Origin: a virus
Reading direction: 5' to 3' (one strand)
Virus record (IMG/VR): IMGVR_UViG_3300044630_000361
Coordinates: 1 to 34,879 of that record
Length of the DNA stretch: 34,879 nt
Part shown: piece after piece, positions 12,871 through 34,879 of the stretch
How the letters are laid out: each line of letters starts with the position of its first letter
Position numbering within the stretch: position 1 is the first letter of the stretch
Translations under genes and position numbers: made by a program
The notes under the pieces: model-generated
What the model saw: only the letters and a program-made list of their open reading frames with translations
The model's database searches: none
Told to the model about the DNA's origin: nothing

Positions 12871-13166
12871 TGACTATGTACGCTAAAACAAGTCCTTATT
12901 ATAATTCGTCAATGGTTAATAATTACCTTGATGTTATTAATTTTAGAGACATACCCAACGAAAGAGATGATATCTTGTTTGAATTGACTGCTACCTATGA
13001 ACATCGTCCTGACTTGCTGGCCTATGATTTATATAAAGATCACAAACTGTGGTGGGTGTTCGCCGTCAGAAATAGATCAGTTATCAAAGATCCGGTATTT
13101 GATATGGTAGCCGGTGTCAAAATTTATTTGCCCAAAGCATCTACTCTACAAAGAGTGATAGGATAA
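12870..13166 (+). CDS. 53: Baseplate wedge subunit gp53
   Basis: A 98-residue protein with the characteristic gp53 core: YYNSSMVNNYLDVINFRDIP, ERDDILFELTATYEHRPDLL (31-50), then AYDLYKDHKLWWVFAVRNRS (51-70) and the end AGVKIYLPKASTLQRVIG, which reads like the LysM-like C-terminus of gp53. Marine T4-like gp53 proteins are about this length, half the size of T4 gp53. In T4, gp53 locks six wedges around the hub. I start at 12870, where ATG overlaps the upstream TAA, rather than at an in-frame ATG at 12849 that lies inside the previous gene; the chosen N-terminus MTMYAKTSPYYN fits the family. Confidence 0.85.
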   Translation: MTMYAKTSPYYNSSMVNNYLDVINFRDIPNERDDILFELTATYEHRPDLLAYDLYKDHKLWWVFAVRNRSVIKDPVFDMVAGVKIYLPKASTLQRVIG

Positions 13167-16656: not shown

Positions 16657-18951
16657 ATGGGATTTGAAACAAGAAAACGTGCCCCACTACCTAATCCGGG
16701 CCCCTTCCTTGCAGAAGTAACAAACCATCTTGATCCAACTTATATGGGCGGACTTGAAGTTGCTTTAATTAAAGGTATGCCTAGCTCTACAAAGATTCAA
16801 GGCGAAACTTATGTAGTTCGTTACCTAAGTCCTTTTGCAGGCAATACTTCTATTAGGCACGAAGGAACTAACAGCAGCGATTTTAATGATGTACAAAAGA
16901 GCTACGGTTTTTGGGCAGTACCTCCAGACGTTGGAACCACAGTTATGGTTATCTTTATTGACGGAGATCCTAATCAAGGTTATTGGATGGGATGTGTAGC
17001 TGATGTATTTCAAAATCATATGGTGCCTGGTATTGCCGCCAGCAAACAAGTTGCGGTCACAAAAGAACAGCGTAGAAAATACGGCACAGATTATTTGCCC
17101 GTTGCAGAATTTCACAAAAGCTCTAAGAAGTTAGAAAACCCTAACGTAGAAAGATTTGCTAAACCAGTACATCCTTTTGCAGATAGATTGGTACAGCAAG
17201 GATTGTTGTTAGACACAGCTCGCGGCGTTACTTCTAGTAGTGCAAGGCGAGAAGTACCTAGCGGAGTGTTTGGTATTAGCACCCCTGGCCCGCTTGATGA
17301 TAGTGCTGGTGCTAAACGAGGTAAGTTGGGTTACGAAGGAAATGCACAAGCACCTGTTAGTAGACTTGGCGGCAGTAGTTTTGTCATGGATGACGGAGAT
17401 GTCAACGGACAGAATGAACTGATTAGACTTAGAACAAGAACAGGTCATCAAATCTTAATGCACAATAGTCAAGACTTAATCTACATTGCTAACAGTAAAG
17501 GCACCGCATGGATTGAAATGACCAGTAATGGTAAGATTGATATCTACGCCGCAGACAGTGTTAGTATTCATACTGAAGCAGATTTTAACTTCCGTGCCGA
17601 TCGAGATGTTAATATAGAAGCAGGCCGCAACATTCAGATGCGAGCAGGTAAAAATATGGAAACTAACATTACAGGATACAATTATCTTGTAGTTGATGGC
17701 GACCAAAAAATTGCCGTTAGAGGAAAGCACGACGAAACAATTGGTAGTTTGGTAAGTATTACAGCAGGACTTGGGTATGACGTTGAATCCGGCGGCGAAA
17801 TTAATTTCTCTGCTGAGGGAGCAGTAAGCCTTGCTGGTGAAGGCAATATCAATCTAGGTACAGCCGGAGTGCTTAATTTAGGTGCTAATGGAAATGTATT
17901 AATTTCTGGATCAAATGTACATTTAAATGGTCCAGCAGCCGGAGCCCCAAACATTGCAACGTCTGCAGAAGTTCCTCCAGATTTGCCACTGTTTAGTCTA
18001 CCGGATAAACAAGTTAGCTACGGATGGAGCGATGGTAAGTTTTATAATACTGGAACTATTAAAACTATCATGCAACGTGTGCCAACACACGAACCTTGGC
18101 CGCAACATGAAAACATTAATCCTACTAAAGTTAGTTCTACTGCTACAGACGTTACTCTTGCAAACGCACCTGGATCTGCACGTGTCGCTGCTGGCGTTCC
18201 CCCTAATCCTGCTGCTGGCAAACAAGAGCCTGCTAATCCACCTGAAGTTGTTCCTGGAACTTGTACTCCTGAATTTTCTAAAGATATTAACGCTAGTTCC
18301 GCCGCCCCAGGTATTGCTGCCCTCAAAGCCGCCTGCGCCAAATATGGAATAACAAGTCCTTATGCAGTAGCTTCTTTGTTAGGTATTGCAGGCGGCGAAT
18401 GTCGTTGGAAGTTAGTTGAAGAAGGATTTAATTACTCTGCAGACAGACTATTACAAGTGTTTCCTAGTGTGTTTAAAGGTGATAAAGCACTTGCCCAACA
18501 ATATGCAGGCAACCCTAATAACAGTTTGCCTGAATTCTTGTACGGATACCAAACTGCTAAAGGTAAAGGTTTAGGTAATACTCAGCCAGGTGACGGCGGC
18601 AACTTTATAGGCCGAGGTTACATTCAGTTAACCGGCCGCGCCAACTATAAACGTTACGGTAATATGGTGAACAAAGATTTACTTAACAACCCTAAATTGT
18701 TAAGCGATCCTGCTATATCAGCTGAAGTTAGTGTCAAATACATGCTTGATAGATGTAAGGTTGCACAAACAGATCCTAACTATTTTGAAGCGGCTTGCAA
18801 GTCTATTGGCTTTAATACGCCAGATATCAAAGCCAAGAAGAAGGGTTATTATGAATGCTTTTTAGGACAGCTACAGGGTAAATTAGTAGGTACAGGCAGT
18901 GGCGGCATCCTCAGTGACAGCAGTGGCAACCCTATAAAAACCGGCTCTTAA
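16657..18951 (+). CDS. 5: Baseplate hub/tail spike gp5 with C-terminal GH19 lytic domain (764 aa)
   Basis: Three parts can be seen. (1) N-terminal OB-fold of gp5/VgrG type, about 15-125: NPGPFLAEVTNHLDPTYMGG, YGFWAVPPDVGTTVMVIFID, GDPNQGYWMG. (2) A repetitive triple beta-helix region, about 285-430, with short alternating units such as NIEAGRNIQMRAGKNME and INFSAEGAVSLAGEGNINLG. (3) A C-terminal glycoside hydrolase family 19 domain, about 545-745, with catalytic-type Glu581 in GGECRWKL, EEGFNYSADRLLQVFPSVF, and the hallmark GRGYIQLTGRANYKRYG from about 651. gp5 forms the membrane-piercing spike, and its enzyme domain cuts peptidoglycan at infection. In T4 gp5 the lysozyme lies between the OB-fold and the beta-helix and belongs to another family. 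SD AGGA precedes the ATG. Confidence 0.9.
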   Translation: MGFETRKRAPLPNPGPFLAEVTNHLDPTYMGGLEVALIKGMPSSTKIQGETYVVRYLSPFAGNTSIRHEGTNSSDFNDVQKSYGFWAVPPDVGTTVMVIFIDGDPNQGYWMGCVADVFQNHMVPGIAASKQVAVTKEQRRKYGTDYLPVAEFHKSSKKLENPNVERFAKPVHPFADRLVQQGLLLDTARGVTSSSARREVPSGVFGISTPGPLDDSAGAKRGKLGYEGNAQAPVSRLGGSSFVMDDGDVNGQNELIRLRTRTGHQILMHNSQDLIYIANSKGTAWIEMTSNGKIDIYAADSVSIHTEADFNFRADRDVNIEAGRNIQMRAGKNMETNITGYNYLVVDGDQKIAVRGKHDETIGSLVSITAGLGYDVESGGEINFSAEGAVSLAGEGNINLGTAGVLNLGANGNVLISGSNVHLNGPAAGAPNIATSAEVPPDLPLFSLPDKQVSYGWSDGKFYNTGTIKTIMQRVPTHEPWPQHENINPTKVSSTATDVTLANAPGSARVAAGVPPNPAAGKQEPANPPEVVPGTCTPEFSKDINASSAAPGIAALKAACAKYGITSPYAVASLLGIAGGECRWKLVEEGFNYSADRLLQVFPSVFKGDKALAQQYAGNPNNSLPEFLYGYQTAKGKGLGNTQPGDGGNFIGRGYIQLTGRANYKRYGNMVNKDLLNNPKLLSDPAISAEVSVKYMLDRCKVAQTDPNYFEAACKSIGFNTPDIKAKKKGYYECFLGQLQGKLVGTGSGGILSDSSGNPIKTGS

Positions 18952-18969: not shown

Positions 18970-19407
18970 ATGCCCTATAAGAATTTAGAAATTAATGTTA
19001 CGAATTATAATAGTCAACATACTAACAAGCTGACTCACTATTATAAGGGTTTTAGCACAACTAATCCCGACAACAGAGGATCTAAACTCTACGACTTTGA
19101 TTTGATTAAACAAAATATTCTTAATCATTTCAACACAAGAAAAGGACAACGAGTAATGAATCCCACCTTTGGTACTATTATTTGGGATATACTTATGGAA
19201 CCGTTGACACCGCAGATCAGGAATGTATTAACTAAAGATATTGAGACTATATGTAACACTGATCCTAGAGTATATCCTACACAAATACAAGTTAACGAAT
19301 ACGAGCAAGGATATCTAATAGATATTGTTCTTGTGATGAAAAATACCGACCAATCGTCAGCATTAAAATTAGTGTTTGATCAGAAAGTTGGTCTAGTACT
19401 ACAATAA
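18970..19407 (+). CDS. 25: Baseplate wedge subunit gp25
   Basis: A 145-residue protein of the gp25/GPW family. The core reads LIKQNILNHFNTRKGQRVMN (46-64), PTFGTIIWDILMEPLTPQI (65-83), and then DPRVYPTQIQVNEYEQGYLI. The R-x-x-NP-x-FG-x-x-I-x-x-L-x-EP pattern is the family hallmark, and the length fits. In T4, gp25 sits in the inner baseplate, clamps gp6 to gp53 and starts sheath polymerisation. It starts 18 nt after the gp5 stop and lacks a Shine-Dalgarno. The order gp5, gp25, gp6 groups inner-baseplate genes together. Confidence 0.9.
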   Translation: MPYKNLEINVTNYNSQHTNKLTHYYKGFSTTNPDNRGSKLYDFDLIKQNILNHFNTRKGQRVMNPTFGTIIWDILMEPLTPQIRNVLTKDIETICNTDPRVYPTQIQVNEYEQGYLIDIVLVMKNTDQSSALKLVFDQKVGLVLQ

Positions 19408-19453: not shown

Positions 19454-22400
19454 ATGATTCCTTCAACTAACTCTCAACTACTGGTCGGCGAAGATTGGAA
19501 AAAAGTTTACCAATCTTTCCGAAATGCTGACTTTAAAAGCTACGACTTTGAAACACTAAGACGTACAATGATTTCCTATCTTCAGGAAAATTATCCAGAA
19601 GATTTTAACGATTTTATTGACAGTAGTGAGTATATTGCTCTAATTGACCTTATTGCGTATCTAGGTCAAAATCTAAGTTTCCGTGTTGATTTAAATGCTC
19701 GAGAAAACTTTTTAGAAACTGCTCAACGTCGTGACAGTATTCTACGTTTGGCACAATTAATTAGCTATCGTCCTAAGCGCAACACACCTGCAAACGGCTT
19801 TTTAAAAGTTACAGCTATTTCTACAACTGACAGCGTCATTGATTCTAACGGAAACAATTTAGCCAATACTACCATCGGATGGAATGATGCTACTAATTCT
19901 AATTGGTACCAACAATTCATTAACATTATGAATTCTGCAATGAGTTCTGATTTTGGAAATCCGGCTGACAGAGAAACATTAGACGGTATTTTAACAGAGC
20001 AATATTATTTTAACGGCGCAACAACTGATGTTCCATTGTTTAGCTATAATAAAAACATTGACGGAGTATCAATGGGATTTGAAGTAGCACCATGTACGTT
20101 TATTGGTAAAACATTTGTATATGAAGCTGCACCCGAACCTGCTAACAAATTTAGTTTTGTTTATAAAAATGATAATCAAGGATCGGGTAGCGCAGATACC
20201 GGATTCTTTACTATGTTTAAACAGGGATCATTGAGTATGGTTCAGTTTACACTTGATAATCCGGTACCTAACGAAATTGTAGGAATCAATACTCCTGATA
20301 TTAACGATACAGATGTGTGGTTATGGCAGCTAGATAAAGATGGTAATTTTGCTACATTGTGGACAGATGTTCCTACAATTAACAACAGTAACAACGTTAT
20401 CTACAATAGTCTTAATAAAGATTTACGAACCATTTATGCAATTGCTCCTAGAGAAAATGATCAGATTGATTTAAATTTTGCTGATGGTGTGTTCGGCGAT
20501 TTGCCCAAGGGGCAATTCAGATTATTCTATAGACAGAGTAATGGAAAGTCTTATGTTATTAAACCTGAGCAAATGAGTGGTATTGTTATCCAAGTACCAT
20601 ACGTTAACGGGTCAAATCAAACTCACACGTTACAATTAACACTAAGTCTACAGTATACAGTTAGTAATAGTTCTGGACCGGAAACAAACGCCAGCATTCA
20701 AACTAAGGCTCCTCAAAATTATTACCTACAGAATAGAATGATTACCGGAGAAGATTATAATATTGCTCCGCTGACTGCAGGTTCTGATATATTAAAAATT
20801 AAGAGTGTCAACCGAGTAAGTAGCGGCCTAAGCAAATATTATGACATTTCAGATGTTACCGGCGGTTATAGTAAAACAAATATTTTTGCTGCCGATGGAA
20901 TTTTGTATCAAGAAGAAACTGAAGAATATTTTGAGTTTGAATTTACTAGCAGAAATCAAGTGCTATCTGTTATTAAGAATACACTAGCCCCTGTTGTATT
21001 ATCTAATGGCATTCGTTCTTTTTATATTGAAAAATATACAAATTTAGATTTAACTTCATTGGCGTTAACATGGAATGAAGTTAATAAAACACCTGGACAG
21101 AGTCGAGGCTATTTCTCAAATATTTCAGGAGTTATGGCAGTAGGTGAATACTCAGAACAAAATTTAAGATATGTTTCCCCGGGCGCACTAGTTAAATTTA
21201 ATCCAACAACTGGCAAGTACTTTGACAGCAATAATAATCTAGTAACTGTTCCTACCTCAGGTATTATTCCGGCAGGCGGCAAAGACTACCTGTGGTCTAT
21301 GGTATACCAAGTTATCGGTGATGGTGGCAACAGTGGAGTTGGTACATTAGATGACGGAACTGGTCCTGTAATATTTGCAAGTCGTGTTCCTCATGGAGCT
21401 GTACCAGTTGAGGTAGTACCTAAGTATATTCATACTTTAAATTATTCAATTGAAAATGAAATTGCAAATCTTTGTATGAGCCAAAGAAATTTTGGTTTAA
21501 CAATATCGAGCGATGCCAGAACTTGGGATATAATTTTAAATTCTAATTTAAATTTAACTAATTCTTTTAGTTTAGATAACCAAGGTAACGTTAGCGATGC
21601 TGGATTAGATTCTAGCTGGATCATAGCTTTTGTTTGGACTGGAAAGAATTACAAAGTTCGTTATAGGAATTTGTTTTTTATATTTGAAAGTCAAGCTGAA
21701 ACATCATTCTATATAGATACTGATTCTATTAACTATGATTTTACAAACAATTCTGTTATTAAAGATAGAGTTGATGTCTTATCAGTTAACCCAGAACCTA
21801 AGTCAACTCGTCAGTGGTATAGCGGAACAACTAATCCGTCTTCTGTATTAGGAGAGAATGGGGATTATTACATTAACATTGCTACTAATAATGCATTTAG
21901 AAAAGTATCAGGTGTTTGGTTATTAGGAAATAGTTTCTCAGGAAAACTAACTTCAGATTATTCTTGGCAAATTGATGGTCCAGTAGTTGAACCTGACGGA
22001 TATGTGGAACCTAAAAAGGTTAAAGTAAGTTTTTATGATTATAATAATACTGGACAGCTTGCAGATCCGGACTCTTTTAAATCTATAGTCAACCCAGAAT
22101 ACGTTGATTCTACAACAGGATTCAAACAGAATTTTGTTTATTTTAAGAAATTAAGTGATGGGTTGCGATATACTCTTACTACAGGAATAATTCCTTTTAA
22201 CACTGAAGACGATTTCTTCATTTATAAATCTACAAATTTAGTAGCAGACAACGATTTATTTTATTTTTACAGCTCAGATTTAAATGTTGTTAAGTACTGG
22301 TCTGAATTAACTCAAAAATTAATATATACTGATCAATATTTTGCTCGAGCAGGCAGATCGGATTTAAATTTCCACTATATACATAACAGTGGATCTGATA

Positions 22401-22999
22401 GACGTATTGACCCTAGTAAATCAAATATTATAGACATCTATGTATTGACTACTGGATATGATAATGAAATAAGAAGTTGGCTTGCTGGTAATTCTGCTAG
22501 ACAACCATTACCACCGACTAGCAGTAGTTTAGAACAAAATTACTCTAGCAGTCTGGAACCAATTAAGGCAATCAGCGATGAAATTATTTTTCATTCTGTA
22601 AAATATAAAGTATTATTTGGAAGTAATGCTACTACTAGCTTACAAGCTAAATTTAAAGCAGTAAGAAATTCTGAAAAACCAACTACAGATAATGATTTAA
22701 AAACTAGAATACTAGTAGCAATTAATGAATTCTTTGCTTTAGAAAATTGGAATTTTGGACAATCGTTTTATTTTAGTGAATTGTCGGCTTATGTAATGAA
22801 CCAACTAACCCCTGACATAACTAATTTTGTAGTCACTCCTAAAAGCGTTGGTAGTTTTGGTAGCTTGTACGAAGTTGCCTGTCTCTCAAATGAAATTTTT
22901 ATCAATGGGGCAAATATTTCAGACATAGAAATAATTGATGCCATTACAGCATCGCAGATAAAATCAATATCAGCAATTGTAACAACCAGTGGAACCTAA
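19454..22999 (+). CDS. 6: Baseplate wedge subunit gp6 (enlarged, 1181 aa)
   Basis: The N-terminal part carries the gp6/J-like signature: FKSYDFETLRRTMISYLQEN, YPEDFNDFIDSSEYIALIDL, IAYLGQNLSFRVDLNARENF, then RRDSILRLAQLISYRPKRNT (to about residue 116). The C-terminal part returns to the conserved end: FYFSELSAYVMNQLTPDITN, FVVTPKSVGSFGSLYEVACL, SNEIFINGANISDIEIIDAI. T4 gp6 has 660 residues, so this form is nearly twice as long; the extra material is mostly beta-rich sequence in the middle (about 450-1000). gp6 forms the iris ring that holds the wedges together and opens when the tail contracts. It follows gp25, carries its own possible late box, and ends 1 nt before the next ORF. Confidence 0.9.
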   Translation: MIPSTNSQLLVGEDWKKVYQSFRNADFKSYDFETLRRTMISYLQENYPEDFNDFIDSSEYIALIDLIAYLGQNLSFRVDLNARENFLETAQRRDSILRLAQLISYRPKRNTPANGFLKVTAISTTDSVIDSNGNNLANTTIGWNDATNSNWYQQFINIMNSAMSSDFGNPADRETLDGILTEQYYFNGATTDVPLFSYNKNIDGVSMGFEVAPCTFIGKTFVYEAAPEPANKFSFVYKNDNQGSGSADTGFFTMFKQGSLSMVQFTLDNPVPNEIVGINTPDINDTDVWLWQLDKDGNFATLWTDVPTINNSNNVIYNSLNKDLRTIYAIAPRENDQIDLNFADGVFGDLPKGQFRLFYRQSNGKSYVIKPEQMSGIVIQVPYVNGSNQTHTLQLTLSLQYTVSNSSGPETNASIQTKAPQNYYLQNRMITGEDYNIAPLTAGSDILKIKSVNRVSSGLSKYYDISDVTGGYSKTNIFAADGILYQEETEEYFEFEFTSRNQVLSVIKNTLAPVVLSNGIRSFYIEKYTNLDLTSLALTWNEVNKTPGQSRGYFSNISGVMAVGEYSEQNLRYVSPGALVKFNPTTGKYFDSNNNLVTVPTSGIIPAGGKDYLWSMVYQVIGDGGNSGVGTLDDGTGPVIFASRVPHGAVPVEVVPKYIHTLNYSIENEIANLCMSQRNFGLTISSDARTWDIILNSNLNLTNSFSLDNQGNVSDAGLDSSWIIAFVWTGKNYKVRYRNLFFIFESQAETSFYIDTDSINYDFTNNSVIKDRVDVLSVNPEPKSTRQWYSGTTNPSSVLGENGDYYINIATNNAFRKVSGVWLLGNSFSGKLTSDYSWQIDGPVVEPDGYVEPKKVKVSFYDYNNTGQLADPDSFKSIVNPEYVDSTTGFKQNFVYFKKLSDGLRYTLTTGIIPFNTEDDFFIYKSTNLVADNDLFYFYSSDLNVVKYWSELTQKLIYTDQYFARAGRSDLNFHYIHNSGSDRRIDPSKSNIIDIYVLTTGYDNEIRSWLAGNSARQPLPPTSSSLEQNYSSSLEPIKAISDEIIFHSVKYKVLFGSNATTSLQAKFKAVRNSEKPTTDNDLKTRILVAINEFFALENWNFGQSFYFSELSAYVMNQLTPDITNFVVTPKSVGSFGSLYEVACLSNEIFINGANISDIEIIDAITASQIKSISAIVTTSGT

Positions 23000-23000
23000 C

Positions 23001-26000
23001 ATGGCGGATATTAAGAAATCAGTTAACCTACTACCAGAATATCTACGAACTGATAAAAATTCTAAATTTTTATCTAGTACAATTGATCAATTTATTCAAA
23101 CTCCTCAAGTTGAAAGACTTGACGGTTTTGTTGGATCGAAGATAACGCCTAACTATAATCCTACTACAGATTTTTATCTTGATGAGTTATCTTCCTTAAG
23201 AAATAATTATAGTTTAGAGCCAGCATTAGTTTTTAAAGATGCAAATGATAACATCACTGATGTTGTTTCCTATGACGATTTAATTAACGAAATTAGAATA
23301 CAAGGCGGAAAGAATTCTAATCTTGATTCAATTTTTAATTCAAAATTCTATTCATACGATCCATTAATTGATTGGGACAAGTTAATAAATTTTACAAACT
23401 ATTATTGGTTGCCAACAGGTCCTGATGTTATTGCATTAGATGTATCTGAAACAGTTAACGACATTGTGGGCAATTCTTCCTATACAATGTCTAATGGATA
23501 TGCGTTAAGCAATGGAATGAAGATTGAAATTGCAAGTGTTGTATACATAGTTGAAGGAGTAGGGTCTTCAATTAATTTAATTAACTACGCATTACTAGAT
23601 TCTTATGACAGGACTGCTACAGTATTTGATGAAAAATTTGACAATGTAGAGTTTGACGAATTTCCATTTGATGGTGATAAAAAGTTACCATTGACTCCTG
23701 ATTATACTACAATTAGCAGAGCCAGCGCTGACTTGAATCCATGGACACGTTACAACAGGTGGTTCCATAAAGAAATCATTAGAGCTACATCTGAGATTAA
23801 CAATGTTCCGGTGATCTATCCGTTAGAAGCAAGAGCTAAACGTCCTATTATCGAATTTAAGCCTAATCTACAATTATATAATTTTGGAAAAGCTGGAATT
23901 AAAAACATTGATTTAATTGATGATACTACAACTGATGCATTTGCTACAGTTGATGGTACCTACGGATACTATATTGACGGTGTGCTATTACAGCAAGGAC
24001 ATAGAGTAGTCTTTAACGTAGATACTGACATAGATGTTAGGGGCAAAGTATTTTCTGTTAATTTTGATCTAACAGGAGAAGTTCCTGTACTACGTCTTAT
24101 TGGTGCTGATGATCTAATTCCAAATGATAGAGATTCCGTTAGTGTAAATTTAGGCACAGAGTATTACGGTACAAGTTGGTATTTTAATGTTGCTACTAGC
24201 AAATGGTTATATGCTCAACAACATACCAAGGTAAATCAACCACCGCTGTTTGATCTCTTCACTAACAACGGTACTAGCTATACAGATATTTCTGAAGCAA
24301 ACAGTTTTACAGGAAATCAAATTTTTGGATACGAACTAGGTTCTGGCGCAAACGATCAAATTTTAGGATTCCCATTAAAATATCAAAACAATATTGGCGC
24401 CGGTAGCTACCTATTTAAAAATTATTTTATGTCAGAGTCAATTACTTTGATTGATAATAATTTAAGTAAGACTATCTCAACTTCTATTACCTATTTAAAA
24501 CTAGATGACAATTTAGTTAATGTTTGGGCCGAATCTGTAAATTATAAAATACCAGTATTAGAAATACAAACAATTACTACTGATACAAATACAATTACCG
24601 TAACCTGTTTAGATTCTCCGGTAGATACTAATCTAGTAGCGTCAGTTTATGTAAACAATGTAAAAATTACATCAACAGCATCTATTACTTCTAGTAAAGT
24701 TGAATTGATCACCAGTAATACGTTATTAGAAAACGATGTAGTATTGTTGAAGATAGAAACAGACCAAGTTCCTAATGCTAATGGTTATTATGAAACTCCA
24801 ATAGGATTAACAAATAATCCATTAAATGGTTCACCAATAAGTCTAACACTAAGTGAGTTAGGAGACCATTTATCCACAATGGTTAATAAAACTTCTGCAT
24901 ATGATGGAACTAACTTAAGAGATTTATCAGACTATACAAAATACGGATCAAGATTAGTTATTAACGCTAACCCAATTTCTTTCTCACAAATATTCTTTGG
25001 TAAGAAAGAACACAATGTAGTCGATGCAATACGAGCAGCTGGGAATCAATACGATCAATTTAAAATGAATTTTTTAAGGTCATTGGTACAAGTTGATAGT
25101 CAAACATCTCCCGCCGATGCAGTAGATTCAATTATAAAAACTCTTAATACTGCTAAAGATCTTAAATCTCCATATCAGCGATCTGATATGATTGGATACG
25201 GGCAGAATAAAGTAGTAAGAACATTTACTGTTACTGATACTTTTAATGTTGAGTATCCTATAGGGTTTGAATTTGATTTAACAAGATTAAGTTTTCAATC
25301 AGTTATCATTTATGTAAATGATGAACAATTGATTCGAGATCGACAATATACATTTAATTATATTGATGGATCTGTAACTTTACTATTGCCATTAGTAATA
25401 GGTGATGTTATAGCAATTCATTGTTATTCTAATACGTTGGGCTGTTATATTCCTCCTACTCCTAGTAAATTAGGACTATGGCCTGCGTACGAACCTATAT
25501 TGTTTACTAAACAAACACCTGCAAACGGCCTTGTAGAATCAATAAGATGCCACGATGGTAGTATAATAGTTGCCTACGGCGATTACAGAGATGCTATTAT
25601 TCTAGAATTTGAAACTCGAATTTTTAACAATATTAAAGTTTCATATGATAAAAATTTATTCGATATGTTGGCATTTTGCCCAGCAGCTTTTAGAGAAAGG
25701 CAATATACAGTAGCTGACGTAAACGGTATTCTTATAAATGATTTTTCACGATGGGCGGGTAAGTACGGAGTTGATGTATCAACAAATAGTACGTTTAACG
25801 AAGGAAGCGCCTTCACTTGGAATTATGTAGGTACTGTGGATAATCTTCTAGATTTAGAAGTTTCTGGATCATGGAAGGCATTGTTTTCTTATTTCTATGA
25901 TACTATTCGCCCTAATATTGCTCCTTGGGAAATGCTTGGATTTATAAATCCTCCCGATTGGTGGGCATCTGAGTATGGAGTCGCACCTTATACCTCTTCT

Positions 26001-29000
26001 AATACTATGCTTTGGACAGATTTAGAAAACGGGTATGTAAGAGGTACTGATATCTATCTTTCTGATTATGCAAGACCTGGCCTGTCTTCTATTATCCCAG
26101 TTGACATTAATGGTGATTTAAAAAACCCCAACACGTTTTTAGTTTCAGAAAACTCATACCAAAACAAAAAAGAAAAATGGAAGTTCGGGGATGTCGGACC
26201 AGCTGAGTTTGCATGGAGGTCTAGTTCTCAATATCCTTTTGCATCTTTAGCAGCCGCTGCTCTATTAAACCCTTGTTCATTCTGTGCTAATCTATATGAC
26301 GTTAGCAGATCAGACATTAACGTTACCGGACAGGCAACATATACAAGCGATGATCTATATTTAGATCCTAGAAAATTAGTAATTGAAGGGGAAGATAACA
26401 ATCAGATTGCAGGTTTTGGATCCTACGTTATCGAAAATGGTAAATCTAAAGACCAAAATTATATTACAAGATTAAGACAAGATCTTGAATATCTTAATTT
26501 TAATCTTTTCCATAAGGTTGGCGGCTTTGTCAGCAAAGAAAAATTACAAATTATTATTGATTCAGTAGACCCTACCTCTACAAGCCCGGGAGTTGTGTTA
26601 CCGTCTGAAGACTACTCACTAATTTTAAATGTAAGTAATCCTGTTAACACTGCTAGTATTTCTGGAATCATTGTTCAAAAATCTAATGGTAAATTTATTA
26701 TTAAAGGATACGATGTAACAAATCCATACTTTAAAATATTCCGTCCAATTGTTTCTTTTTCTTCTGGAGTTGTTAAAGTTGGCGGCACATCAGAAGAGTT
26801 TACTGAATGGTCTAACATAGTTAATAATGGTAACAATGGATTAAGTAGTGTTGATACTACCTCAGCGGAATCTACAACTGGCCGCTATTACAAACAAGGT
26901 CAACTAGTAAGATACAATAATAAATTTTATAGAGTTAAGATTGGACACAACGCAGGTTCTACATTTGATCTAACATTGTTTCAAGGTATTCCCACACTTC
27001 CTGTTAAGGGCGGCGCAACAGCGCAGCAACCATCAAAATTTGAAACAACTGTAACACAGATTCCTTATGGATCAGAATTTACAAATGTTCAAGAAGTGTA
27101 TGATGTAATTTTAGGTTATGGTGCATATCTAGAGAGTCAAGGATTTATATTTGATGAATTTAATACAGATTTAAATGAAATACTTAATTGGAAATTTACA
27201 GGAAAAGAATTCTTGTATTGGTCTACGCAAAATTGGGCCGACGGTAACTTAATTACATTAAGCCCGTTTGCAAATTATATCAAATATAATTTTCCAAACA
27301 CAGTAGTAGATAATATTTCTACAGGAAAATATGAATACAGTCTATTAAAGGCAGACGGTAAACCTTATCCTATTGATAGATTTACTATGTCTAGAGAAGA
27401 TACAATATGCACAATTAAAACTAGAGATGCAAACGAGGGCTTATTCTTTGCAACATTAAATTCTGTACAAAAAGAACACGGTATGGTGTTTAATAACTTT
27501 ACAGTATTCAACGATACTATCTATGACGTTGAGACAGGATATAAGCAACGAAGAATTAAACTTTCTGGATTTAGAACAAAAAACTGGAACGGAGATTTGT
27601 TCAGCCCTGGATTTGTATACGATAATGTTGAAATTACCGATTGGCAACCATATAAGAAATACTTACCGGGTAAAGTTGTAAGGTATAACGGTAGGTATTA
27701 CCAATCTTTGAAATCAATTAGTGCTAATGTTACGTTCAATTTCAACGAATGGGATCAGCTGCGAGACAAACCAGTTCCACAACTGTTACCTAACTTTGAT
27801 TACAAAGTTAATCAGTTTGATGATTTCTATAGTTTAGATATTGATAATTTTGATTATGGTCAACAGCAATTGGCGCAACATTTAACAGGATACACTCCTA
27901 GAATATACTTAAACAATATCTTTACTAACCCGATTAGTCAATATAAATTCTATCAAGGAATGATTAAAGATAAGGGTACTAAAAATGCAGTTGACAAATT
28001 ATCCAAAGCTAGTGAATTTACTAACAAGGGTGAGATTTCTTTTAAAGAAGAGTGGGCTTTTAGAATAGGCCATTACGGTAGTTTTGGTACTTTAAATGAA
28101 ATAGAATTTTCTTTAGAAGAAGGAACCTTTTTAGAAAATCCTTATCTAATTAAATTTGCCGATTTAGTACCAACTGATTCAAATCCTTTAGTTAATTATG
28201 TAATACCTTCAGACTTACTACTAACCCCAGTTGACTATTCACCTGCTGCTACTATCGATTCTTATCCTAGCACTTGGTTAGATAATAATTTAAAATTAAC
28301 CACAGCGGGTTATGTACGTCCTGACGATGTTACCTCTACTGCCTATAATAAAAACAGTCTGTTAGACATTGCTAATAATTCTGCAATACAAGACGGAGAC
28401 ACAATTTGGTTAGGTTTTCAAGAAAATGGAGACTGGACAGTATACAGATATGCAAAACAACTTGCTGAGATTACAGGAGTGTTTGTTAGTGCGCCAGGTG
28501 GCGAAATTACTTTTGTAACTGATGGACATCATAATCTTCAACCTGGAGATGTTATCTCTGTAGCAAGATTTAATAATCAGGTTAATGGAGTTTACATTGT
28601 TAACTCTGTTGTAACAATCAGTCAATTTACAGTTTCTAGTTCTTTATCCAGTATAGAAAATGAAGCATTATTAAATTACGGTGCCCTGTATAAATTTGAA
28701 GAAGCTAGATATAGTAATCTTGATGAGCTAGCAGCAGTTACTGATTTATTAAAATTAAATGCCGGTGATAAAGTTTGGATTGATAACGGAACTGGCGGCA
28801 AGTGGCAAGTTTACGAAAAAATTAAAAACTATTCTGCGGCAGTTTCAGATACAGTTAACACACCACCCGGACAGCAGTTCGGAACATCAATCTTTGCATC
28901 CGATGATAGCCCTGTAATGTTAGTATCTGCACCAGGATGGAAAGTTGACGGAACATTTAATTGGGGACGAGTTAAAGTCTTTAATAACGTAAACGGTATC

Positions 29001-32000
29001 TGGGCACGAAAATATGATTATATTTTAAATAGTGCTCAAAAAACATACGCCAGCGCAACTAGTTCTACACAGTTTGGTTATGCTTTACAATATGATATTG
29101 CAAAAAAGTTGTATGTAACTGGAGCTCCTGAGGCTACTTATGTTAGAGCAACTGGAACTAATGTATTAACTTTTAGTACTGGCACCGGATACGCTAGACC
29201 TTACATCAATGAAGGATTAGTTAAGATTGATAGTCGTCAAGAAGATTTTCCAACATTTACTGAAATTGTATTAACTAATACAGCTACATTAAGTAACTCT
29301 AGGTTCGGCCATTCTATATATGTAAATCAAGTTGCGTCTAATGTGTCTACAATGATGTTGGTTGGTGCTCCTGGAATCTCATCATCTATTAGCACAGGTT
29401 CTGTATATGCTTATGTTGTAAGTTTTGGTACAGGAACATTTACCTCTACGACTGGAATTTCTCGTGGCGGCCAGGGAATAGCCTCAGCAGTGTTATCTGG
29501 ACTAACAACAGCTGACAAATCAAATACATCTACTATTTCGTTAAGTTTTTCAAATCCTGAAACTTCGAATGGAGTTCCTGCAACTGGAATTATTAGCTGG
29601 TTAACTACTTCAACAACTGCTACTGCTACTGCTACTTCAATAATAATTACTAGTCCAGGATGGGGGTATTTACAAGCTCCAACAGTGTTAATTATTGGAA
29701 ATACTACCGGAACTAACGGAACAGTTACAACTACATTAAAGAATGAAACAGTAGTTAATGACCATCCAGAATTATTTGAAATTAAACCTAATTCAATATT
29801 GTATGCTGGGGATCAATGGGGACATAAAATTGCCGGATCACCTGATAGTTCAAGAATTGCAATTAGCGCCCCGGGTAAATTTAATACCTCTACCGGTGTT
29901 GTAGAAATTTTTAATAATAATTTACAATACCTACAAACTTTATCACACTTAACTGGTAAATTTGGATATGATGTTGCTATGTCAACAAATTACCTAATTA
30001 TATCTGCACCTGAGTTTAAAGAAACAAACGAACCTTACGGTAAAGTTGACATTTATAAACTAACTAATTTAACTTCTACAGGTACATATACATTAGTACA
30101 AACTATTGTCAATCCTCTACCTACCAATGATTTAAAGTTTGGTTACTCTATATCTATCAGTAAAGATGAAAAGACAATTGGTATCAGCGCTCTAGGCAAA
30201 ACTAGAAGTCAAGACCAAATATTTGATGAATATAATAATTCAGGTAAGACTACATTTGACAATAATTCTACAAAGTTTAATGAGTCGTTGCCGGATGCTG
30301 GAACAGTTTATTTGTACAATAAGATAGGCAACAAATTCATTCAAGCTGACGAATTGAACGATGTTAGGATAATTGAAGATGTTACAGAAGCATCTATAAT
30401 ACCTTTTGATATTCCTACACAAGCCCCAACAGCTCCTGTAATCACTAACATCGAGTTGTCTGAAAATCCTGCAAACATAGGAAATACCATAGTTGTTACA
30501 TTCCATACAGATGTTGATATTAAGTATATTATTGGACAAGTTGATGGGCTAACATATGGTCCTTACGGCGGCACAATTCAAAATTCTCCAAATCGTGATC
30601 ATTATTTTTATATTGATACTACTCGATTCCCTGCTGGCATTCGTAATTTGGTAATCTATGCTCAAAACGCATTAACAGACGTTTGGGGAGCTGGATATAC
30701 AACATTTACTTTAGAACCTGCAGTTTACACTATTTCTGCTGGTAGCAGATATGGTAGTGCAGTTGTAGTAACCAATAATGGTGTGTTTGTAGGAGCACCG
30801 ACAAATCAAAGTAATTTATTACCTGCTCCTGCAACTGATGCTTCTAGATTGTTTATCTTTAATAAAGTGAATACAAATTCTCTAAGCTGGAATGTGTTAA
30901 GAGAACAATCAGACTTAGTTGATATTTCAACAGTTGGGCGTGTCGCACTAATTGATACATTGAAAGAAGAGATTATTGATTATCTTGATGTTATTGATCC
31001 AGTTAAAGGAAAGATTGCAGGTATTGCCGAACAAGAATTAAAATATAAAGCCGCATTTGATCCTGCTACATATTCTATAGGACTTGCAGGCACAATTGTC
31101 AACACTGAAACAAACTGGTTAGATGAGCATGTTGGTGAATTATGGTGGGATTTGAGTACTGCTAAGTATACCTGGTATGAACAAGGCGACGAGATATTTA
31201 GAAAAAATAATTGGGGTAGATTATTCCCAGGTGCAAGTATTGATGTTTATGAATGGGTAAAATCAGATCTACTACCAAGCGAATGGGCTGCACAAGCTGA
31301 CACTACTAAAGGATTGACAAATAGTATTAGTGGCCAACCTAAATATCCTGACAATAGTGTTATCTCAGTTAAACAAGTGTTTAATAATGTAACAGGCGCA
31401 TTTGAAAATGTTTATTACTTCTGGGTTAAGAATAAAGTAACATTGCCTTCTGTTAAAAATAGAAGGTTAAGTAGCTATCAAGTTTCTAATTATATTGCGG
31501 ATCCCGTTGCTAACGGATTAAAATTTATTGAAATATTATCTCCTGACACTGTTGCATTTGCAAATGTCCAACCACTACTAGTTGGTAACAGAATTAATGC
31601 AAATATCAGTACTCATTATTATTCATCTACTCCTACTCACACTGAATGGTTGTTATTGAATGAAAGAGATCATACAAGTTTACCTAATACGCTCTTAGAA
31701 AAGAAATTATTTGACAGCTTATTAGGGCACGATAGTTTAGGCACAGTTGTTCCTAGTAAGAGTCTTACCTATAGAAATAGATACGGAATTGGAATTCGTC
31801 CTCAACAAACTCTGTTTAAAGATAGATTGGCAGCATTACGTAACTTAATTTCTTTTGTAAATTCTGTATTGCTTGAAAATAGAATTGTAGGAAATTATTC
31901 TTTTGAAAACCTTAACAAGGTAGAAGAAATTCCTGCATTACTTTCATACGAGTATGATGCAATAGTTGAAGATACCGCTGCACTTGATGAAGTCTTTACA

Positions 32001-34879
32001 GTTAACTATATACGTGCTAGCTTAGAATGTTATGCAGAAAACGGAAAAATAAAAAATGTAACTATTATTAATCCTGGTTTCGGATATACCATTGCTCCAA
32101 AGGTTAAAATTCTTTCAGCCGGCACCTCTGTGGGGGAGATTGTAACAGAATTAAATTCAGAAGGCAAGATAATTTCTGCAACTATTACTAATGTAGGAGC
32201 TGGATACCAAGACGGGCTTTTAAAAATTGAAGTTAGACCGCACACAATTATTGTTCAGGCTAACGCTGATTATAACGGAAGATGGACCAAGCACAGTTTT
32301 AATTATTCTTTAAGAGTATGGGTTCGAACTCAAACTCAAAAGTACAATACACCATTGTTCTGGAAAACAGTTGATTGGGTTAATAGTACCTATGATGCAT
32401 ATAAAACTGTAGGATACACTATATCTAATCTGTTTGAATTAGGATCGTTAACTTCTATTGCTAATAGTGACTACGTAAAAGTCAAAAATATTGGCGATGG
32501 AAAATATGCAATATTGCAAAAAGTAGAAGCTGCTGGAAATTATATTCCTTCATATGATATTGTCTACAGAGAACAGGGGACTATACAGTTATTAGATACT
32601 TTGTGGGATTACAGTTTAGGCAAGTATGCTTACGACAGTGCAACTATTGAAGAAACTTTATACGACCAAATTCCTGATCAAGAATTGTATTATATTCTTA
32701 CTGCCCTAAAAGATAATATTTTTATTAATTCGTTAAAAGTAAATTGGAATTTGTTTTTCTTTGCAGCAGTTAAGTATGCGCTAACAGAACAGAAATTATT
32801 GGACTGGGCATTTAAAACTTCCTTCATCAACGTCTTTAATAACATCGGTACACTTGATCAGCGTCCTGTTTATAAATTAAATAATGAAGAATATTTTGAA
32901 AGTTATATTAATGAAATCAAACCTTATCATACAAAGATAAGAAGTTATACTTCGATCTACGATAAGATTGAACAGTCTAATCTATACACAACTGACTTCG
33001 ATTTACCGTCTTACTATAATACAGTCAGCGACTCTCTTGAAGTAGTTGGGCTAGGTGATCCATTACTAGATACATATCCTTGGAAATCATGGGCAGACAA
33101 TTATAAATTCTATGTTGGAGCAATTGAAGTAGGATATGCAGGCACAGGATATACTCAAAGACCTACAGTAACTATTACTACTGCTACTAGTGACACTGGT
33201 TCGGGTGCAACTGCCGAAGCATACATTAGAAACGGTGAAGTGTACAAGGTGTTAGTAACCAATCCGGGAGCTGGATATGTAATTCCACCAATCGTAACTA
33301 TTTCTAATAGTAATGTAGGTAATGATCCTGCTAGGGTATCTGTTATAATGTCCAATGATACTGTTCGAAAAAATATTATTGGGATGAAGTTTGACAGAAC
33401 TTCTACAGTAGGTGACATTGTTGATTTAACAGTAACTGACGAATTTGTATGTGACGGAACATTGGACAAGTTTACATTAACATGGTTAGCAAGTCCAGAC
33501 AAACGTACTATTACTCCGTTATTAGATGGCAAATTAATATTTGGTGCAGACTATACTATTGAATATTATCAAGTTAAGGTATCTCAAACTGGTATAGATA
33601 TTCCTCAGGCGTTCCCAAGAAATTCTTGGGAAGGTGAACGAATGGTTGACCATCGTTATAAGTATTTCTTGAATACAGAACGATCAGGAGAACTACCAGG
33701 TTATATTCGACACTATGCTAAGTTTGTATTCTTAAATCAAGTTCCAACTTATGGACAAGTTTTTAAAATTACCTATAATAAGAATATTGATTTGTATAAT
33801 GCTGTAGATAGAATTAATAGTCTATATAATCCTAGTGATTTGATGCCAGGTAAAGAATTGCCCCTACTATTAAACGGCGCAGAATATCCAGGAATATCTG
33901 TTCAAGGCTTACTGTTTAATCAAACCCCTAACTGGGATAATACCGGTACAGGGTTTGATTCTGCTCCTTGGGGCGAAACTGTTAATAGTTATGCAGTTAC
34001 TAAACTTCTGGGAGATTTGGATGTAAATCAAACACAATTTACGGTCAGTTCTCTTGATGGAATTTTTGCAGGACAGACTATTGTTCCGTTAAACACCTCT
34101 ACTCAAATTTTTAAACCTACTACTATTGTATCAGGTGTTGGTCCAGGTAATAAAGTGTATGTTACTACATTAGACTTAGTAGATACACAAATAAAAAGAA
34201 TCTTCTCAACATATACAATTTCTGGGTTATCTGGTACTACTCTTGTCGGAAGCGGCGCAGAATTTAATATAATTGATACCGGCACTGGAACTTACAGCAT
34301 TTCAACAGTAACTAATAGCGGGTTGAACTATCGAATAGGACATAAGATCAAGATTTCAGGTTCAGCACTAGGTGGTGTAGATGGAGTCAATGATGCTATA
34401 ATTACAGTTGATAATAATTCTCCATCCCCAATTGTTGGCTATGCTAGTATTGTTGAAGGTACCGCCGCAGGCACATCTTATACAGTGTATACTAACATAA
34501 CAGGCACAAACTATCAAGTAGGTTCTAATGCTACTTTTGATTTAATAGTAGATAACACTGGGTATAACGTACGGGTTTCGTCAACTGGTACGGGCGGCGC
34601 AAATTATGTTTTCCGTGATAAAATTTTAATTGACGGAAATACTATTGGCTTTCGTAACACTGGTACTAATAATATTACACTTACTGTTAACGATTTAACA
34701 GATACCAGTATTCGTATTGTAACTTCTGAAGGCGTTATTCAATCAGGTTCTCCTGCTGGATCTACAATAATTATTAACACTAAGGATTCATTTAATACTG
34801 CTATCAGCGTAGGAGATTTAGTAGCGGTTGTAGGAGTTAATAGTCTTTACGGGTACGGAATTCGATCAGTTTCTACCTT
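23001..34879 (+). CDS. Giant multidomain baseplate wedge/tail protein, gp7 position (partial, at least 3959 aa)
   Basis: The ATG at 23001 opens a frame that remains open to the window end (3,959 codons plus 2 nt); the C-terminus is missing. The start is 1 nt after gp6 with GGA about 8 nt upstream, so translation is coupled. The N-terminus (MADIKKSVNLLPEYLRTDKN, then ERLDGFVGSKITPNYNPTTD) resembles very long structural proteins after gp6 in marine T4-like phages. Other regions: HDGSIIVAYGDYRDAIILEF (about 851-870), two V-x-x-RYN carbohydrate-module-like motifs (about 1290-1313 and 1553-1570), seven FG-GAP-like repeats (about 1960-2625) with an Ig-like insertion (about 2475-2573), several PG-x-GY-x-x-x-P repeats (about 2219, 3025, 3066, 3381, 3422) and two related beta units near the edge (about 3755 and 3846). 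By position it replaces T4 gp7 (1032 residues); homology to gp7 is not shown. It may also carry receptor-binding modules. Confidence 0.8.
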   Translation, partial: MADIKKSVNLLPEYLRTDKNSKFLSSTIDQFIQTPQVERLDGFVGSKITPNYNPTTDFYLDELSSLRNNYSLEPALVFKDANDNITDVVSYDDLINEIRIQGGKNSNLDSIFNSKFYSYDPLIDWDKLINFTNYYWLPTGPDVIALDVSETVNDIVGNSSYTMSNGYALSNGMKIEIASVVYIVEGVGSSINLINYALLDSYDRTATVFDEKFDNVEFDEFPFDGDKKLPLTPDYTTISRASADLNPWTRYNRWFHKEIIRATSEINNVPVIYPLEARAKRPIIEFKPNLQLYNFGKAGIKNIDLIDDTTTDAFATVDGTYGYYIDGVLLQQGHRVVFNVDTDIDVRGKVFSVNFDLTGEVPVLRLIGADDLIPNDRDSVSVNLGTEYYGTSWYFNVATSKWLYAQQHTKVNQPPLFDLFTNNGTSYTDISEANSFTGNQIFGYELGSGANDQILGFPLKYQNNIGAGSYLFKNYFMSESITLIDNNLSKTISTSITYLKLDDNLVNVWAESVNYKIPVLEIQTITTDTNTITVTCLDSPVDTNLVASVYVNNVKITSTASITSSKVELITSNTLLENDVVLLKIETDQVPNANGYYETPIGLTNNPLNGSPISLTLSELGDHLSTMVNKTSAYDGTNLRDLSDYTKYGSRLVINANPISFSQIFFGKKEHNVVDAIRAAGNQYDQFKMNFLRSLVQVDSQTSPADAVDSIIKTLNTAKDLKSPYQRSDMIGYGQNKVVRTFTVTDTFNVEYPIGFEFDLTRLSFQSVIIYVNDEQLIRDRQYTFNYIDGSVTLLLPLVIGDVIAIHCYSNTLGCYIPPTPSKLGLWPAYEPILFTKQTPANGLVESIRCHDGSIIVAYGDYRDAIILEFETRIFNNIKVSYDKNLFDMLAFCPAAFRERQYTVADVNGILINDFSRWAGKYGVDVSTNSTFNEGSAFTWNYVGTVDNLLDLEVSGSWKALFSYFYDTIRPNIAPWEMLGFINPPDWWASEYGVAPYTSSNTMLWTDLENGYVRGTDIYLSDYARPGLSSIIPVDINGDLKNPNTFLVSENSYQNKKEKWKFGDVGPAEFAWRSSSQYPFASLAAAALLNPCSFCANLYDVSRSDINVTGQATYTSDDLYLDPRKLVIEGEDNNQIAGFGSYVIENGKSKDQNYITRLRQDLEYLNFNLFHKVGGFVSKEKLQIIIDSVDPTSTSPGVVLPSEDYSLILNVSNPVNTASISGIIVQKSNGKFIIKGYDVTNPYFKIFRPIVSFSSGVVKVGGTSEEFTEWSNIVNNGNNGLSSVDTTSAESTTGRYYKQGQLVRYNNKFYRVKIGHNAGSTFDLTLFQGIPTLPVKGGATAQQPSKFETTVTQIPYGSEFTNVQEVYDVILGYGAYLESQGFIFDEFNTDLNEILNWKFTGKEFLYWSTQNWADGNLITLSPFANYIKYNFPNTVVDNISTGKYEYSLLKADGKPYPIDRFTMSREDTICTIKTRDANEGLFFATLNSVQKEHGMVFNNFTVFNDTIYDVETGYKQRRIKLSGFRTKNWNGDLFSPGFVYDNVEITDWQPYKKYLPGKVVRYNGRYYQSLKSISANVTFNFNEWDQLRDKPVPQLLPNFDYKVNQFDDFYSLDIDNFDYGQQQLAQHLTGYTPRIYLNNIFTNPISQYKFYQGMIKDKGTKNAVDKLSKASEFTNKGEISFKEEWAFRIGHYGSFGTLNEIEFSLEEGTFLENPYLIKFADLVPTDSNPLVNYVIPSDLLLTPVDYSPAATIDSYPSTWLDNNLKLTTAGYVRPDDVTSTAYNKNSLLDIANNSAIQDGDTIWLGFQENGDWTVYRYAKQLAEITGVFVSAPGGEITFVTDGHHNLQPGDVISVARFNNQVNGVYIVNSVVTISQFTVSSSLSSIENEALLNYGALYKFEEARYSNLDELAAVTDLLKLNAGDKVWIDNGTGGKWQVYEKIKNYSAAVSDTVNTPPGQQFGTSIFASDDSPVMLVSAPGWKVDGTFNWGRVKVFNNVNGIWARKYDYILNSAQKTYASATSSTQFGYALQYDIAKKLYVTGAPEATYVRATGTNVLTFSTGTGYARPYINEGLVKIDSRQEDFPTFTEIVLTNTATLSNSRFGHSIYVNQVASNVSTMMLVGAPGISSSISTGSVYAYVVSFGTGTFTSTTGISRGGQGIASAVLSGLTTADKSNTSTISLSFSNPETSNGVPATGIISWLTTSTTATATATSIIITSPGWGYLQAPTVLIIGNTTGTNGTVTTTLKNETVVNDHPELFEIKPNSILYAGDQWGHKIAGSPDSSRIAISAPGKFNTSTGVVEIFNNNLQYLQTLSHLTGKFGYDVAMSTNYLIISAPEFKETNEPYGKVDIYKLTNLTSTGTYTLVQTIVNPLPTNDLKFGYSISISKDEKTIGISALGKTRSQDQIFDEYNNSGKTTFDNNSTKFNESLPDAGTVYLYNKIGNKFIQADELNDVRIIEDVTEASIIPFDIPTQAPTAPVITNIELSENPANIGNTIVVTFHTDVDIKYIIGQVDGLTYGPYGGTIQNSPNRDHYFYIDTTRFPAGIRNLVIYAQNALTDVWGAGYTTFTLEPAVYTISAGSRYGSAVVVTNNGVFVGAPTNQSNLLPAPATDASRLFIFNKVNTNSLSWNVLREQSDLVDISTVGRVALIDTLKEEIIDYLDVIDPVKGKIAGIAEQELKYKAAFDPATYSIGLAGTIVNTETNWLDEHVGELWWDLSTAKYTWYEQGDEIFRKNNWGRLFPGASIDVYEWVKSDLLPSEWAAQADTTKGLTNSISGQPKYPDNSVISVKQVFNNVTGAFENVYYFWVKNKVTLPSVKNRRLSSYQVSNYIADPVANGLKFIEILSPDTVAFANVQPLLVGNRINANISTHYYSSTPTHTEWLLLNERDHTSLPNTLLEKKLFDSLLGHDSLGTVVPSKSLTYRNRYGIGIRPQQTLFKDRLAALRNLISFVNSVLLENRIVGNYSFENLNKVEEIPALLSYEYDAIVEDTAALDEVFTVNYIRASLECYAENGKIKNVTIINPGFGYTIAPKVKILSAGTSVGEIVTELNSEGKIISATITNVGAGYQDGLLKIEVRPHTIIVQANADYNGRWTKHSFNYSLRVWVRTQTQKYNTPLFWKTVDWVNSTYDAYKTVGYTISNLFELGSLTSIANSDYVKVKNIGDGKYAILQKVEAAGNYIPSYDIVYREQGTIQLLDTLWDYSLGKYAYDSATIEETLYDQIPDQELYYILTALKDNIFINSLKVNWNLFFFAAVKYALTEQKLLDWAFKTSFINVFNNIGTLDQRPVYKLNNEEYFESYINEIKPYHTKIRSYTSIYDKIEQSNLYTTDFDLPSYYNTVSDSLEVVGLGDPLLDTYPWKSWADNYKFYVGAIEVGYAGTGYTQRPTVTITTATSDTGSGATAEAYIRNGEVYKVLVTNPGAGYVIPPIVTISNSNVGNDPARVSVIMSNDTVRKNIIGMKFDRTSTVGDIVDLTVTDEFVCDGTLDKFTLTWLASPDKRTITPLLDGKLIFGADYTIEYYQVKVSQTGIDIPQAFPRNSWEGERMVDHRYKYFLNTERSGELPGYIRHYAKFVFLNQVPTYGQVFKITYNKNIDLYNAVDRINSLYNPSDLMPGKELPLLLNGAEYPGISVQGLLFNQTPNWDNTGTGFDSAPWGETVNSYAVTKLLGDLDVNQTQFTVSSLDGIFAGQTIVPLNTSTQIFKPTTIVSGVGPGNKVYVTTLDLVDTQIKRIFSTYTISGLSGTTLVGSGAEFNIIDTGTGTYSISTVTNSGLNYRIGHKIKISGSALGGVDGVNDAIITVDNNSPSPIVGYASIVEGTAAGTSYTVYTNITGTNYQVGSNATFDLIVDNTGYNVRVSSTGTGGANYVFRDKILIDGNTIGFRNTGTNNITLTVNDLTDTSIRIVTSEGVIQSGSPAGSTIIINTKDSFNTAISVGDLVAVVGVNSLYGYGIRSVST
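28878..30870 (+). repeat. Seven FG-GAP-like beta-propeller repeats in the giant protein
   Basis: Each unit begins FG or a variant and later has a GAP-like turn: FGTSIF...SAPGW...VKVFN (28878), FGYALQ...TGAPE (about 29074), FGHSIY...VGAPG...VYAY (about 29307), WGHKIA...SAPGK...VEIFN (about 29817), FGYDVA...SAPE...VDIYK (about 29964), FGYSIS...SALG...VYLYN (about 30138), YGSAVV...VGAPT...LFIFN (30750). Seven units are what a closed integrin-alpha-type propeller needs. Blades 3-4 and 6-7 are separated by inserted segments. Confidence 0.7.
34263..34691 (+). repeat. Two tandem related beta units at the visible end of the giant protein
   Basis: Units start FNIIDTGTGTYSIS (34263) and FDLIVDNTGYNVRVS (34536). 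Each continues with a G-x-x-Y step (GLNYRIGHKIKISG versus GANYVFRDKILIDG) and ends in an I/L-T-V strand. Spacing is about 91 residues. More copies may follow beyond the window. Confidence 0.5.

Follow-up and report, generated by a model that had tools for sequence, protein, structure and literature searches.

A predicted integrin-type beta-propeller set into a giant phage virion protein

Propeller domain

The stretch of viral DNA studied here (IMG/VR virus record IMGVR_UViG_3300044630_000361, positions 1 to 34,879, i.e., 34,879 nucleotides; in the following called the window) carries an open reading frame (ORF) for a giant virion structural protein (22989..34877; coordinates refer to the plus strand unless stated otherwise). 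As judged from sequence profiles and predicted models, residues 1938-2650 of this protein (28800..30938) form, with near certainty, a seven-bladed beta-propeller of the FG-GAP (integrin alpha) type that is interrupted by inserts.

A first-pass annotation of this DNA had read seven FG...GAP-type units in one stretch at 28878-30870, i.e., in residues 1964-2627 of the giant ORF, a span that opens with the first FG and closes with strand 3 of unit 7, and this is confirmed. The units start at residues 1964, 2029, 2106, 2277, 2325, 2384 and 2588 with FG, FG, FG, WG, FG, FG and YG, respectively, and each start is followed by a GAP-like triplet, which is degenerate (SAL) in blade 6. A spaced regular expression finds six units, all within the region and none in the remainder of the 3963 amino acids (aa), whereas in 2000 shuffles of the region the same expression yields a mean of 0.05 and a maximum of 1; unit 7 (YG...VGAP) is missed by the expression owing to its shorter spacing and was identified by eye. 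Blade 1 comprises, from FG to strand 3, residues 1964-2001 (28878..28991), blade 2 residues 2029-2081 with a long 2-3 loop (29073..29231), blade 3 residues 2106-2147 (29304..29429), blade 4 residues 2277-2308 (29817..29912), blade 5 residues 2325-2358 (29961..30062), blade 6 residues 2384-2444 with a conserved 2-3 loop of 33 residues (30138..30320), and blade 7 residues 2588-2626 (30750..30866).

Conservation was followed in 36 aligned rows (the window and 35 loci), 35 of which extend to blade 7. A hydrophobic residue with Gly or Ala occupies all seven FG places in 33 of these 35 rows, the pattern failing at one blade or more in L064 and L065, and a strict aromatic-Gly pair does so in 16. The GAP-like triplet is retained in blades 1 to 7 in 24, 35, 34, 29, 13, 21 and 33 rows, respectively, being weakest in blade 5, and the blade cores reach a majority-residue identity of 0.6-0.8 (34 rows). 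The Pfam family FG-GAP_2 (PF14312; cut-off 23 bits) matches the window protein only once, in blade 5 and just before it, with 22.1 bits, such that Pfam alone would overlook the propeller; in the relative L057 the cut-off is exceeded (32.7 bits).

Concerning the fold, an 18-row profile of the region gave 41 distinct matches at E <=1 among the sequences of the Protein Data Bank (PDB), all of them integrin alpha chains (best: alpha-4, 2e-7). With a 34-row profile the best match reached 1.5e-9, and 33 of 39 rows were integrin alpha, the other six being fatty-acid-binding proteins with E 0.27 or worse. AlphaFold2 modelled the window region with a predicted local distance difference test (pLDDT) of 69 and a predicted template modelling score (pTM) of 0.66, the insert 2148-2260 staying below 50, and the compact relative L029 with 86 and 0.87, respectively. 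With VIA-align the models align along the whole integrin alpha propeller at Z about 31-33 (alphaM: 32.0 for the window model, 33.0 for the L029 model), and of alphaIIb (1tye) 369 of 452 residues are aligned at 3.3 A (window) and 3.1 A (L029). The N-terminal strand of the phage propeller is aligned with the strand at integrin residue 1, which in integrins closes the propeller ring (PMC3192720). A point to be weighed against these values is the Z of 29.8 obtained between the window model and Ciao1, an unrelated WD40 protein, so that Z alone is no proof of the integrin type; this type is indicated by the sequence profiles together with the motif.

The integrin-like fold claimed in the first-pass annotation is thus borne out by the profiles and by two AlphaFold2 models: structure prediction, which had been proposed as a check, gave a propeller and no other fold. 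As in integrin alpha chains, the FG and GAP motifs recur in seven repeats; the sequence profile is similar to these chains, and the predicted models show a seven-bladed fold colinear with them. That the motifs arose by chance and form no propeller might be argued from the FG-GAP_2 score slightly below the Pfam cut-off; the shuffles, both profile searches and both models speak against it, and, barring a joint error of profile matches, VIA-align and models, this reading is ruled out, its probability being negligible.

In the Foldseek ranking, integrin alpha chains came top (best: alphaV, 7e-12) and bacterial sialidases followed from rank 11 (4.9e-9). The presence of the latter would suit an enzyme that cleaves host surface sugars in the way of sialidase-type propellers; however, integrin chains stand above the sialidases, and the sequence profiles match integrins and no glycosidase, such that an enzymatic role appears improbable.

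Several blades of integrins have a calcium motif between strands 1 and 2, and bacterial integrin-type propellers have a calcium site in every blade (PMC3192720). The propeller of the window has short FG-to-GAP loops, with 12-18 residues between the motifs, and the DxDxDG-type calcium motif, the only type looked for, occurs in none of its seven blades. The check for such loops that the first-pass annotation had suggested thus came out negative, and its mention of metal-ion binding is not upheld; metal binding of the DxDxDG type is rejected. In lacking this motif, which integrin alpha chains have in the strand 1-2 loop of several blades, the propeller departs from the integrin alpha type, and it broadens the range over which calcium-free FG-GAP propellers are known.

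Giant protein and its gene

The giant gene begins with GTG and is open at its 3' end in the window; its part in the window comprises 3963 aa and reads past the window edge, whereas the near-identical contig L001 contains the complete protein (4966 codons, stop to stop). The longest frame among the relatives compared alongside, 6204 codons, was seen in the propeller-bearing relative L224. The protein belongs to the RaK2-type giant virion proteins, as is indicated by the match of its scaffold to phrog_10938 (E 1e-293) and by tblastn matches to 59 phage records. Its N-terminal scaffold (residues 1-1819; 22989..28445) is common to RaK2-type jumbo phages, and the flank C-terminal of the propeller module (residues 2665-3319; 30981..32945) is common to RaK2 and Vibrio phage 2.275.O. 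Within the scaffold, Pfam locates a carbohydrate-binding module 5/12 (CBM_5_12; residues 1552-1574; 27642..27710), which was found in 10 of 12 family members, whether or not they have a propeller, so that sugar binding would characterise the giant protein in general and would not be confined to the propeller. The C-terminal half contains GxGYxxxPxV-type repeats (residues ~3005-3076 and ~3376-3440; window ~32001-32217 and ~33114-33300), which probably explain an odd match to phrog_460 ('head closure').

Upstream of the giant gene and on the same strand follow one another a possible gp53-like wedge protein (12849..13166; PF11246 with 19 bits, below the cut-off of 21), a structural protein, a gp5-like baseplate hub and tail lysozyme (16657..18951; phrog_13211, E 1e-52), a gp25-like wedge protein (18970..19407; PF04965 with 35.8 bits, cut-off 27.2) and a gp6-like baseplate wedge subunit (19454..22999; phrog_10646, E 7e-280), after which the giant gene comes directly. 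This is the place of gene 7 in T4, where it adjoins gp6 in a cluster of the order gp53-gp5-gp25-gp6, with the reservation that the gp53 match in the window lies below its cut-off. The gp6-like gene precedes the giant gene also in five isolate records, as annotated in Phosso, RaK2, PA5oct and Atu_ph07 and by position in Vibrio 2.275.O. T4 gp7 itself is a peripheral wedge protein of six copies that contacts gp8 and gp10 (PMC3004832).

Against an equation with gp7 stand the sequence searches: no Pfam gp7 domain was found in 12 family members at E <=1, and a 12-row profile did not retrieve the T4 gp7 chain from the PDB at E <=10, its five matches all being chitin-binding parts of a chitinase or deacetylase. 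A weak Gp7_5th match (E 0.17) lies in an insert of L140. These searches thus gave no sequence homology to T4 gp7, and the gp7 role of the giant protein rests on position. Of the term 'T4-type wedge protein' used in the first-pass annotation, the wedge position and the gene order stand, whereas in sequence the 12 members gave no match to gp7 domains at E <=1.

Further upstream on the minus strand (window 8206-11000), adjoining genes with AAA_23/SMC_N and metallophosphatase matches form a pair like SbcC/SbcD or the gp46/gp47 nucleases.

Distribution among relatives

The N part of the scaffold matches 59 phage records and the C part 56, all at less than 60% identity, whereas the propeller region has no match among 50,697 phage records (tblastn with the propellers of the window, L008 and L060 as queries). 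Six isolates were inspected among the 59 records with scaffold matches. Between the flanks, RaK2 has 139 residues, Vibrio 2.275.O 282, PA5oct 322, SCTP-2 432, Phosso 1470 and Atu_ph07 1524, and the propeller profile matches none of the six at this site (best E 0.71, SCTP-2). Since the flanks match isolates while the site between them holds other residues without a propeller match, sequence comparison shows the propeller to be a module, inserted at a single variable site of the giant virion protein. Repeats similar to GxGYxxxPxV fill this site in Atu_ph07 and Phosso.

Scanning viral contigs with the window region yielded 22 loci, including the near-identical L001; a second scan, using an alignment, yielded 43 loci, partly on the same contigs. 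The family sample pools the best 80 loci of each of three scans, such that the share of propellers in it is a sampling result and not a frequency. Among the best 80 loci nearest to the window, 76 have the propeller and the remaining four stop short of the site. From 300 sequences, 289 with the whole core were kept, 198 were left after removal of near-duplicates, and 23 were dropped as too short, so that 175 were counted (at least 900 aa past the core; propeller called at E below 1e-5). A propeller is present in 146 of these 175 sampled proteins; the 29 without it are the six isolates and 23 contigs. Eleven of the 23 dropped proteins match the propeller and 12 do not; of these 12, L159 extends 861 aa past the core and the other 11 stop within 248 aa.

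In a tree of the core, from which the propeller was excluded (a single FastTree run, midpoint-rooted), the groups with and without propeller are separated by a single change, with supports of 0.999 and 1.0; because of the midpoint rooting, gain and loss of the propeller are indistinguishable in this tree. At least some viruses of the propeller clade are of jumbo size, since the propeller-bearing contigs L090, L137 and L199 measure 228,849, 200,843 and 230,059 bases, respectively. As only uncultured members were found here, work on isolates would not have revealed the propeller. One scan of genome contigs for a cellular source or host gave 35 pattern matches and no relative, and a search of the virus's own genome yielded nothing further, as its record is identical with the window.

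A profile of the single unit, trained on rows that are also present in the test set, detects units in all 146 propeller proteins: eight in 3 of them, seven in 43, six in 30 and between two and five in the other 70; it finds none in the 29 proteins lacking a propeller and none in 146 reversed sequences. Each of the three cases with eight units includes one weak extra unit (2.3-3.6 bits). Seven units can be read by eye, with large inserts between them, in L128, the only distant member so read. Apart from the three weak extras, the distribution ends at seven, which is in keeping with a ring of seven blades, some of whose units go undetected in distant members. The same unit count, which was to be looked for in homologues, is thus found in 43 proteins, whereas only two to five units are detectable in 70. 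The degeneration of the units in distant members, with at most five detectable in these 70, might suggest that the propeller has decayed or is neutral, being carried along without any role under selection; this is very improbable in view of the open frame, the majority-residue identity of the blade cores and the persistence of the domain in all 146 clade members.

Inserts and rate of change

Two stretches of the window propeller, residues 2148-2262 and 2463-2582, are inserts and not blades. The former (29430..29774) follows strand 3 of blade 3, is about 115 aa longer than in L003 and is modelled with low confidence. The latter (30375..30734) is an all-beta insert between blades 6 and 7 that is absent from L008, L011, L017 and L029; by its strand pattern we read it as immunoglobulin (Ig)-like, and it has no Pfam match.

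Inserts of at least 40 residues exist in 94 of the 146 proteins, most commonly after strand 3 of blade 3 (50) and of blade 5 (34), and longer ones of about 500-590 residues are situated in the 2-3 loop of blade 2; the places are uncertain in distant members, and three negative median lengths in the insert table are an artefact of split alignments. In two of six large inserts scanned (L098, L137), CBM_5_12 lies above the Pfam cut-off. Repeated helical-looking inserts, with a pattern like VIYALAxNLxAPLYYGExxIxxWMxxGL, were observed in the blade 3 and blade 5 loops of L009, L010, L014, L015, L018 and L021; these repeats have no Pfam match in L014 or in L057, which is from the same contig as L015.

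The median identity to 116 relatives is 0.42 in the core, 0.39 in the C flank and 0.31-0.35 in the blades, and the two inserts of the window are mostly missing among these relatives. By these values the propeller changes faster than the scaffold.

Possible function

Host recognition in contractile-tailed phages is usually credited to the fibres and spikes on the wedge. We propose that the giant protein would occupy the peripheral place that gp7 takes in the T4 baseplate, with presumably six copies, and that its propeller would be a rigid display platform exposed at the baseplate rim. The propeller loops would carry exchangeable inserts (all-beta, helical, CBM5/12), and it is these that would first touch sugars or proteins on the host surface, ahead of tail contraction. 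This hypothesis of a peripheral adhesion platform with exchangeable loop modules, which takes up the host-surface binding suggested in the first-pass annotation and to which we give an even chance, fits the variable loop inserts, two of them with CBM5/12, and the stronger divergence of the propeller in comparison to its flanks. If true, the wedge giant protein of a deep clade would itself bear a candidate adhesion device, placed within the very part that sets off contraction. Carried by most of the sampled uncultured relatives and by none of the cultured ones examined, the propeller may be a common, putative surface-contact device.

The main rival explanation is that the propeller is a docking part, i.e., a hub for protein-protein contacts to which tail fibres or adjacent wedge proteins would be fixed, with no contact to the host. 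Propellers often serve as protein hubs, this one is kept throughout a deep clade of 146 proteins with conserved blade cores and a conserved blade-6 loop, and the giant gene lies among wedge genes, the product of T4 gene 7 being in contact with gp8 and gp10 (PMC3004832). A docking part would, however, have to accept large variable inserts in its loops, some of them with carbohydrate-binding modules, and the RaK2-type relatives do without a propeller; with these points taken together, docking is a serious possibility, though one to which we give less than an even chance.

Several observations weigh directly against the adhesion platform. The conserved blade-6 loop also suits a structural contact. 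Four of the six large inserts scanned with Pfam have no CBM, and the presence of a CBM is in itself no pointer to the propeller, since CBM5/12 is found in the scaffold of most members examined, propeller or not. The propeller core is not hypervariable, with 47-83% identity among near relatives, and the least alignable part of the protein is another one, residues 3721-4200 (L001), which can be aligned in 15 of 116 relatives only and which, judging by this variability, could be a host-specific tip. As an extension of the adhesion platform it may be imagined that a large uncultured clade, partly of jumbo size, built an integrin-like receptor head into its wedge once, that the loops are sockets for exchangeable adhesion modules and that the wedge protein itself, in addition to the fibres, selects the host; this we regard as speculative and rather unlikely.

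Comparison with known systems

FG-GAP propellers are already known from bacteria (PMC3192720) and, by prediction, from many viral proteins including separate phage ones. No description of one in a wedge protein was found in the open-access literature, subscription papers and bioRxiv preprints being outside this search, and the terms propeller, integrin and FG-GAP are absent from a large jumbo-phage survey (PMC7824862).

The phage propeller is most similar to that of integrin alpha chains (PDB 3v4p, 1tye, 9t3y), with which it shares seven FG-GAP blades, the alignment beginning at the N-terminal strand and running through blade 7; the domains inserted into its loops recall those integrin alpha chains that have an I domain in the propeller. 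Despite this general similarity, it lacks DxDxDG calcium loops, has ~16-20% identity, is not known to have a beta partner or membrane anchor and lies inside a giant phage protein, whereas an integrin receptor chain has a beta partner, thigh and calf domains and a membrane anchor, which are not expected in a phage virion protein. With bacterial integrin-type propellers it has in common the seven FG-GAP repeats and the prokaryotic setting, whereas these, as described in PMC3192720, possess a calcium site per blade and the phage propeller has DxDxDG in none of seven.

Concerning the RaK2-type giant virion proteins (phrog_10938; RaK2 ORF070, PA5oct gp355, Atu_ph07 gp180), the flanks and the place after the gp6-like gene are the same, whereas these proteins hold 139-1524 unrelated residues without a propeller match at the site. 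Separate FG-GAP proteins of phages, i.e., the 393-aa 'hemagglutinin' of Atu_ph07, S-TIM5 H6WG31 and A0A6J5S3H5, have predicted folds that match the L029 model, the first being matched also by the propeller profile (3.5e-5); unlike the window propeller, however, they stand alone, outside a wedge giant protein. Outside the giant gene, the propeller profile has matches in two of the six isolate genomes, 22 in Phosso and 2 in Atu_ph07. The Atu_ph07 'hemagglutinin' (L309, 3019-4200, minus strand) is situated between a mazG-like and tail sheath genes, and in Phosso similar matches are found in two genes adjoining its mazG-like gene. In Sinorhizobium phage Phosso (L067, PV764938.1), hypothetical proteins with frames of 3182 and 3702 aa are encoded at 48338-57826 and 57900-68978 (both minus strand); these two very long proteins carry many propeller-profile matches and are separate from the wedge-position giant protein of this phage.

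Propellers are furthermore described in PMC5259590 for the RaK2-like jumbo phage CBB, one of whose propeller proteins was detected in virions; in this, CBB resembles the virus of the window, whereas its propellers are of the Kelch type and encoded by separate genes (CBB_550, 552, 554). The nozzle proteins of T7 and SU10 likewise contain propellers (named in PMC10607447) and share with the window protein a beta-propeller in a phage tail, the difference being that theirs belongs to the nozzle of short-tailed phages.

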